Of a stretch of DNA of 64,000 nucleotides, positions 40,491 to 40,789 are shown one piece after another. Source of the DNA: Flavobacteriales bacterium (GTDB taxonomy: Bacteria > Bacteroidota > Bacteroidia > CAIKAF01); NCBI GenBank assembly GCA_018401695.1, contig JAGYKD010000001.1, forward strand, positions 598,016-662,015, read 5' to 3'. Every line of letters starts with the position of its first letter. Positions within the stretch are counted from its first letter, which is position 1. The position numbers and the translations under genes were made by a program. Under the pieces are notes generated by a model. That model saw nothing but the letters and a program-made list of their open reading frames with translations. It was not told the DNA's origin and ran no database searches.

Positions 40491-40578
40491 GGAGAGATGA
40501 CCGAGTGGCTGAAGGTGCACGCCTGGAAAGCGTGTGTACTCCTAAAGGGTACCGGGGGTTCGAATCCCCCTCTCTCCG
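40491..40578 (+). tRNA. tRNA-Ser (anticodon GGA)
   Basis: The acceptor stem GGAGAGA (40491-40497) pairs with TCTCTCC (40571-40577), with discriminator G at 40578. The anticodon stem cacgc/gcgtg (40518-40522, 40530-40534) holds loop CTGGAAA with anticodon GGA at 40525-40527. A long variable arm (tactcctaaagggta) and T-arm GGTTCGAATCC are present, as expected for Ser. CCA is not encoded. The 3' end plus the downstream terminator are duplicated at 40721-40789. Confidence 0.96.
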
Positions 40579-40631
40579 CAAAGCCAAAGCCCGATTAGGG
40601 CTTTTTTTTATTTCAAAGGGATGCCCCAAAC
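40563..40631 (+). repeat. 69-bp direct repeat, copy 1 (tRNA-Ser 3' end plus terminator)
   Basis: It contains the last 16 nt of tRNA-Ser and the terminator hairpin (aagccc gatta gggctt, then eight T; about 40587-40609) plus flank. It is identical over 69 bp to copy 2 at 40721-40789, offset by exactly 158 bp. Confidence 0.95.
40586..40609 (+). terminator. Terminator of tRNA-Ser
   Basis: The stem aaagccc/gggcttt encloses loop gatta and runs into eight T, starting 8 nt after the tRNA. The same terminator recurs in repeat copy 2. Confidence 0.85.
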
Positions 40632-40720
40632 TTGTTTGAGGGCAGAACTTTGAAATAAAAATCAAACACGCTTCAGCGGGTTTGGCTTTGCAGCTCCCCC
40701 CTTTAGGGATCAGTTTTACT

Positions 40721-40789
40721 AATCCCCCTCTCTCCGCAAAGCCAAAGCCCGATTAGGGCTTTTTTTTATTTCAAAGGGATGCCCCAAAC
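40721..40789 (+). repeat. 69-bp direct repeat, copy 2 (displaced tRNA-Ser 3' end plus terminator)
   Basis: Perfect 69-bp copy of 40563-40631 without the rest of the tRNA. The 89 bp between the copies (40632-40720) contain an arm complementary to part of copy 1 (ttatttcaaag near 40608, ctttgaaataa near 40648). Such a layout resembles an attachment-site duplication or a slipped duplication; no integrase is nearby. Confidence 0.9.

Follow-up and report, generated by a model that had tools for sequence, protein, structure and literature searches.

The tRNA-Ser(GGA) gene of a Flavobacteriales bacterium (assembly GCA_018401695.1, contig JAGYKD010000001.1) is followed by one complete repeat unit without a reading frame of its own and by a truncated second unit, which probably belong to a family of tRNA-anchored tandem repeats that is associated with GIY-YIG nuclease genes and occurs mainly in Bacteroidota. 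The array looks like part of a little-noticed group of mobile repeats that dwell in tRNA genes. The anatomy of the units, their recurrence, the association with GIY-YIG genes, the arrays of mixed type and the conserved fold were all established by observation. We analyzed the array within a window of 64,000 nucleotides (the whole stretch of DNA under study) and compared it with loci collected from the same genome (G000) and from other genomes.

The first-pass annotation of this DNA reported a perfect 69-bp duplication of the tRNA-Ser 3′ end and its terminator. A repeat search confirmed this: the two copies listed in Table 1 are 100% identical, and their spacing is as claimed, 158 bp from start to start with 89 bp in between. 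The tRNA contributes its last 17 nt to the repeat when the gene end is taken from ARAGORN (40579) or 16 nt when it is taken from Rfam (40578). Judged from its length, a perfect repeat of 69 nt lies far out of the reach of chance. What the first-pass annotation overlooked is that the 158-bp period is a complete unit in itself. Unit 1 opens with the 3′ part of the tRNA, beginning in the T-loop, continues with three hairpins and finishes with a closing hairpin that resembles a T-stem. Repeat copy 1 starts within the T-loop of tRNA-Ser(GGA) and stops at the apex of hairpin 2 in the predicted fold. The outer-stem span is an imperfect palindrome whose GCAAAGC and GCTTTGC arms are predicted to close over all three hairpins, giving a cloverleaf-like four-way fold. 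The search for terminator-like hairpins returned two, compared with a mean of 1.0 (sd 0.9) in shuffled sequences.

The closing hairpin rebuilds the T-stem with the GTTCG half of the T-loop replaced, reading TACTAAT where the tRNA has TTCGAAT, and directly after it the tRNA 3′ end begins anew. Five palindromic repeats follow the second unit, which is truncated at the hairpin 2 apex. The only ORFs overlapping unit 1 are mechanical minus-strand reading frames, and positions 40563-40789 contain neither a GIY-YIG ORF nor a match to PF01541. The unit has its boundary within the tRNA gene, which every unit thereby makes complete, and its displaced tRNA copy is altered by a hairpin. Both features are those of the family; without a GIY-YIG gene, the unit can only be called an ORF-less relative.

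Table 1. Features of the tRNA-Ser(GGA) array, in window coordinates.
Feature	Position	Strand	Basis
Intact tRNA-Ser(GGA), anchor of the array	40491..40579	+	ARAGORN; Rfam RF00005, 57.7 bits
Unit 1, complete, 158 bp, no GIY-YIG ORF	40563..40720	+	Repeat period
Repeat copy 1: tRNA 3′ end, terminator, 5′ half of hairpin 2	40563..40631	+	Repeat search
Outer-stem span, GCAAAGC/GCTTTGC	40578..40691	+	Inverted repeat and predicted fold
Hairpin 1, intrinsic-terminator-like stem and T run	40586..40604	+	Terminator search
Hairpin 2, long and central, tip CAAACTTGTTTGAG	40608..40658	+	Predicted fold, helices 3 and 4
Hairpin 3	40663..40684	+	Predicted fold, helix 5
Closing hairpin GGGATCAGTTTTACTAATCCC	40706..40726	+	Sequence
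Repeat copy 2, the truncated second unit	40721..40789	+	Repeat search
Second terminator-like hairpin, in repeat copy 2	40744..40762	+	Terminator search
Five palindromic CCACGCATGGCNATGCRT repeats beside the truncated unit	40794..40922	+	Repeat and pattern searches

Palindromes of the ACGCATGGCNATGCGT type form two clusters in the window. The first (40794-40922) comprises five places beside the tRNA-Ser array, and the second (48278-48369) comprises four places, with 2 mismatches, about 270 bp downstream of the tmRNA and on the tmRNA strand. In total there are 12 strand-matches at 9 places in the window versus 0 in 100 shuffles, and the exact 18-base pattern occurs genome-wide only at the first cluster. 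The tail of the tmRNA (48637-49003), read by eye, holds tandem palindromes only and no comparable repeat. In some units of the sister genome G003, the right half is replaced by a palindrome similar to the CCACGCATGGCNATGCRT repeats. The truncated unit in the window stops at the apex of hairpin 2, and a unit remnant in G001 (L010) likewise stops, by eye, near a hairpin apex; such ends look as if palindromes had been cut or lost at their center.

Units with the same layout are found behind four tRNA genes of this genome, Ser(GGA), Ser(TGA), Arg(TCT) and Asp(GTC). We scanned loci covering 40 Rfam tRNA matches, with tRNA genes located by ARAGORN, for tail copies up to 900 bp downstream. The scan returned tRNA-Ser(GGA), tRNA-Arg(TCT) and tRNA-Asp(GTC); the displaced copy at tRNA-Ser(TGA) has decayed too far to be picked up in this way, and that gene was added separately. 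The unit behind tRNA-Ser(TGA) is single and is 76% identical to the unit described above (query positions 53-227); the tip of hairpin 2 occurs only twice in the genome, both times at a tRNA-Ser unit. The tRNA-Arg(TCT) unit measures 164 bp and is present in 2.5 copies as counted by TRF. Behind tRNA-Asp(GTC) stand four tandem units of 404 bp with one GIY-YIG nuclease gene apiece. Units 1-3 of this array differ from one another by 0-1 of 404 nt, indicating recent amplification or homogenization, and unit 4 differs by 29-30. Two further matches were taken as chance, a tail match of tRNA-Pro(GGG) in G005 (L103, 4 mismatches, 669 bp) and a 9-mer match of tRNA-Phe at 1286 bp (L085). Separately, a weak 57-nt tRNA match (31 bits) at G000:C14:154010-155398 (L063, L269) has a phage-integrase frame of 429 aa about 800 bp away, and may mark a genuine case of integration at a tRNA in another part of the genome.

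The first-pass annotation had named a comparison with sister strains as its own check, and this comparison revealed both presence and absence. Units at tRNA-Ser(GGA) are found in G000, G003 and G005, none was seen at this gene in G002 and G004, and G001 has what looks by eye like half a unit only. G003 carries the same locus, with matching sequence over 3.7 kb upstream (90%) and 5.0 kb downstream (88%), and its array has four unit starts split over contigs C46 and C38 (one and three, respectively). In G005, a unit and a truncated second unit occur at both tRNA-Ser loci, alike in layout to those of G000 and unrelated in sequence. Across all collected loci (blastn, E <= 1e-3), the interior of our unit matches the tRNA-Ser loci of G000 and G003 only, none of which has a GIY-YIG unit. 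The tRNA-Arg unit is present in G000, and none was found in the 500 nt behind the tRNA-Arg genes of four other members of the genus (L067, L096, L110, L113). The tRNA-Ser units of G005 are ORF-less, yet the sole PF01541 match of that genome lies in a 621-aa frame, suggesting that a resident small nuclease is not needed for the units to persist.

To assess the predicted fold, we compared eight ORF-less units with dinucleotide shuffles and obtained folding z values of -3.2 to -7.9, with -5.1 for the unit in the window. Across the four tRNA-Ser units of G000 and G003, which are four related sequences and the same ones from which the structure was derived, 9 of 45 predicted pairs have changed on both sides and 98.9% of cells are paired. 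None of 500 shuffles reached these values, and sliding the partners by 1-3 columns gave at most 4 two-sided pairs. Hairpin 2 contributes 8 of the pairs with two-sided changes. Two units of G005 have the same fold layout, with 7 of 44 pairs compensated. The compensatory changes in the tRNA-Ser units therefore support the fold and do not amount to proof. A DNA hairpin would give the same changes as an RNA, and the folded molecule may be either one.

Each of the tRNA-Asp units in this genome encodes a protein of 100 aa, and that of unit 1 matches PF01541 with an E-value of 6.7e-13. Residues Y6, Y17, G19, R27, H31 and E63, which presumably include the GIY-YIG catalytic residues, are invariant in 12 GIY-YIG sequences, a set of conserved positions that applies to the tRNA-Asp unit ORF only. 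Intact frames of this kind span 72-105 aa, hardly beyond the catalytic domain. The frames of 12 Flavobacterium or Flavobacteriaceae loci have a median dN/dS of 0.10 (65 finite of 66 pairs), indicating that the reading frame is under purifying selection in these genomes. The solved relatives of the tRNA-Asp protein are two UPF0213 proteins, with E-values of 2.9e-6 and 1.9e-5. A phage origin of the nuclease was considered and rejected, as 50,697 phage records yielded one weak match (E 3e-4).

Scanning genome contigs with an alignment of four small GIY-YIG proteins of this kind gave 54 loci, which by record name comprise 52 from Bacteroidota, one from Chlorobiota and one from Patescibacteria. A tRNA gene lies within 1 kb in 46 of the 54, being upstream of the ORF on the same strand in 42, downstream on the same strand in 3 and on the opposite strand in 1. 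Five of the remaining eight are cut by a contig edge upstream and three are not (L180, L186, L201). With a profile built from 12 such proteins, matches were obtained in 95 of 148 genomes of the phylum, a count that may include GIY-YIG proteins unlinked to tRNA genes. From these many matches we took the best-scoring 30 and left out the locus of our own genome; 25 of the 29 others have a tRNA gene within 1 kb, representing ten isotype/anticodon kinds, among them three cases of tRNA-Ser(TGA) and one of tRNA-Ser(GGA). Among the four without a tRNA, L210 and L232 lie close to an edge, the sequence of L215 begins 92 bp ahead of its first GIY-YIG copy, and no such circumstance accounts for L236. The nuclease gene and the tRNA gene share a strand in 70 of the 71 linked loci of both sets. 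Since the queries and the profile members all came from tRNA-linked copies, the proportions 46/54 and 25/29 are biased towards the association, and the variety of tRNA genes involved carries more weight.

As a control, we searched with a small GIY-YIG protein of another kind from G004, which we take to be UPF0213/YhbQ-like, and scored a tRNA as present if it lay anywhere in the retrieved sequence, which reached up to 1.5 kb to either side. A tRNA was present in 0 of the 22 best-scoring loci (L237-L258), a cut chosen after the table had been seen, and in 3 of 30 overall. All three fall among the eight low-scoring loci, several of which coincide with places in the profile-search list.

GIY-YIG units were also found at the same tRNA genes as the ORF-less units: L223 and L198 have them at tRNA-Ser(GGA), and L212, L230 and L234 have them at tRNA-Ser(TGA). 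Mirror-image units occur in L182, L191 and L198, where a broken tRNA 5′ part is followed by the GIY-YIG gene and then by the intact tRNA; L198, from a record named Patescibacteria, has two of these in tandem before tRNA-Ser(GGA). In seven loci from Flavobacterium and a Flavobacteriaceae genome (L163, L164, L170, L173, L174, L176, L197), a GIY-YIG unit with an intact frame stands behind the second of two tRNA-Asp genes, which seems to reflect vertical keeping rather than free mobility. At L119/L132 (G001:C30), a GIY-YIG gene behind tRNA-Asn is followed by what are, by eye, two tRNA-Asn-like copies with the anticodon and T arms swapped for CCCGC hairpins.

ORF-less units and GIY-YIG units share an array behind one tRNA gene at three loci, L157, L188 and L212. 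At L157, four displaced tRNA-Asp 3′ ends bound gene-less units and are followed by a GIY-YIG unit with the same start, and at L188 GIY-YIG units alternate with short units. At L212, a tRNA-Ser(TGA) locus, one GIY-YIG unit is flanked on both sides by ORF-less units, and these have GGGATCAACGCAGTTAATCC (in one case AATAC) as their last bases ahead of the tRNA 3′ end. The GGGATCAGTTTTACTAATCC ending of the unit in the window is of the same style. It is mainly because of this likeness that we place the unit in the family despite its lack of an ORF.

We also surveyed displaced tRNA copies behind 224 distinct tRNA genes with enough downstream sequence, a sample made up mostly of loci chosen for their GIY-YIG genes that provides no genome-wide rate. 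Downstream copies of the last nine bases were found at 65 of the 224 genes. These number 86, of which 11 are full tRNA genes and 75 are partial. Further tRNA-body sequence precedes the copy in 47 of 72 partial copies tested (p <= 0.01) and by eye is often broken by a hairpin; no such remnant was detected in the unit in the window (p 0.77), the Arg units or the G005 units. In all 13 tRNA-Ser and tRNA-Arg rows, the motif GTTCGAA is present in the tRNA and missing from the displaced copy. The T-loop core is kept in 23 of 37 partial tRNA-Asp copies and in 10 of 25 at other tRNAs, indicating that not every displaced copy has lost the motif. At L230, a hairpin divides the T-loop into GGGGGTTC and GAATCCC.

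The identity of the two copies in the window had been read as a sign of recent duplication or homogenization, and our data support this. They could have arisen by local tandem duplication, through slippage or unequal sister-chromatid crossing-over, with gene conversion keeping the copies alike and no element involved. The copies are indeed adjacent and identical, array lengths vary, and long inverted repeats are known to provoke slippage. We nevertheless consider this unlikely, because the boundary falls repeatedly in a tRNA gene, across several tRNAs and species, with unit interiors that are unrelated. In addition, a single genome has related units at two tRNA-Ser loci that lie on separate contigs, the displaced T-loop is altered in every tRNA-Ser and tRNA-Arg row, and some of the arrays contain nuclease genes. 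Somewhat less likely still is a function as RNA, in which the units would be co-transcribed with the tRNA as a structured tail or small RNA, similar to the rtT RNA that E. coli releases from its tyrT transcript, and the fold would be an RNA fold. Transcription from the tRNA promoter is plausible, the folding energies are low, and production of an RNA by a tRNA operon is known from tyrT in E. coli (PMC4986893). The compensatory changes fit this explanation too, but a DNA hairpin would yield them equally, and a terminator-like hairpin follows right after the tRNA. Furthermore, the unit sequences of G000 and G003 are unrelated to those of G005, no unit was seen at tRNA-Ser(GGA) in two sister genomes, and only tRNA reached the Rfam gathering score, with RtT absent from the 9 matches listed.

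Of the first-pass interpretation, our analysis supports the view that the displaced tRNA 3′ end marks an element bounded by the tRNA gene. It does not support the proposed integrase att scar. tRNA 3′ ends are classic integrase targets and GGGATCAGTTTTACTAATCCC is a palindromic, core-like sequence, so the T-arm palindrome could be the core of a tyrosine recombinase and the unit a non-autonomous integrated element or its scar. However, none of the 10 PF00589 matches in the genome lies within the window (on this contig, a fragment at C1:573797 comes nearest, at a distance of about 65 kb), the enzyme gene in such units is GIY-YIG, and a single 3′ att core would not account for the mirror units 5′ of tRNA genes. 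The 89-bp interval is no island remnant either; together with the first repeat copy it forms a structured unit, which is found again at tRNA-Ser(GGA) and tRNA-Ser(TGA) in G000 and G003. We therefore regard a recombinase mini-element as improbable. An assembly artifact is the least credible explanation of all. Repeats of this kind do break assemblies, and the G003 contigs end within its arrays, but our locus is interior to a 1.57-Mb contig, and the same locus in G003 has more units between flanks that are 88-90% identical.

Several known systems resemble the repeat family that we favor. The distal repeats of E. coli tyrT are likewise arranged in tandem behind a tRNA gene, each with a tRNA 3′ end. 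They occur in other bacteria, however, no Rfam RtT match was found here, and to our knowledge neither nuclease-coding units nor altered T-loops are among the features of tyrT. Islands targeted to tRNA genes and flanked by att repeats also leave a displaced tRNA 3′ end, with an incoming copy that keeps the tRNA intact. They differ in that our locus has no integrase, the 89-bp interval is part of the unit, and the units form tandem arrays, some of them located 5′ of the tRNA gene. Similar to MITEs and other non-autonomous palindromic repeats, the units are short, structured and ORF-less. Our unit is palindromic, and in three loci ORF-less units share an array with longer coding units. Unlike MITEs, their position is tied to tRNA genes; in passing, neither a target-site duplication nor a transposase was noticed.

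A close precedent is SegB of the T-even phages, also a GIY-YIG gene beside tRNA genes with a T-loop-like motif, for which cutting inside tRNA genes and tandem amplification of the tRNA region are described (PMC13096335); in the chromosomal arrays, such cutting would be expected by analogy. According to the SegB sections of that paper, T6 SegB is a GIY-YIG enzyme that cuts in tRNA genes, with the motif RAWTSGAAC at 23 of 83 mapped cut sites; the motif enhances cutting and is not strictly required (PMC13096335). The reverse complement of this motif is GTTCSAWTY, and the T-loop of our tRNA-Ser, GTTCGAATC, fits it. Tandem amplification in T6 is described as needing the nuclease activity of SegB, with none in mutants of two recombination genes (PMC13096335). 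The systems differ in that SegB acts in phage genomes, where the amplified T6 segment is a whole tRNA plus a truncated segB, and the sections on SegB describe neither hairpin-broken tRNA copies nor ORF-less structured units (PMC13096335). The present arrays lie in chromosomes, and every one of their units restores the tRNA gene.

By analogy, we infer that the chromosomal units may work much as SegB amplification does. A unit begins with the 3′ part of the tRNA, thereby completing the tRNA gene, and ends with a displaced copy of that 3′ end, which in most cases has a hairpin before or within it and would act as a decoy. The GIY-YIG nuclease would cut the tRNA gene at or near the T-loop, and recombinational repair against a unit-bearing copy would insert or duplicate the unit. 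The gene would be rebuilt in each round and the older 3′ end shifted downstream, so that the array would probably grow in this direction, and the altered decoy would escape cutting. ORF-less units would be internally deleted or parasitic forms, possibly mobilized in trans or carried by recombination, and the fold may have a role in this process. Several points count against the model. Under it the intact upstream tRNA remains cuttable, and the short nuclease frames leave little room for site recognition. Further points are the missing GIY-YIG ORF of the unit in the window, the ORF-less tRNA-Ser units of G005, the lack of tRNA-body remnants in both of these, and the many displaced copies that keep the T-loop core.

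GIY-YIG homing elements associated with tRNA genes and repeats of tRNA tails are both known, but separately. We found no description, in openly licensed PubMed Central papers, of a GIY-YIG element combined with a tRNA-tail repeat or of such arrays on chromosomes. It is thus possible, and here we are more tentative than about membership in the family, that the units represent an undescribed class of mobile repeats in tRNA genes, with T-loop cutting, rebuilding of the gene upon insertion, shielded decoys that resist renewed cutting, and ORF-less parasites of four-way fold mobilized in trans, spread over much of Bacteroidota and many isotypes.

If this is true, the tRNA genes of Bacteroidota would be landing sites for a widespread selfish repeat that uses a nuclease of about 80-100 residues rather than an integrase, and whose carried 3′ part keeps an essential gene intact. 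Displaced tRNA ends now taken as integrase scars would then have another possible reading, and contig breaks at tRNA genes would have a reason. The arrays would also be a chromosomal counterpart of the phage SegB amplification published in 2026.
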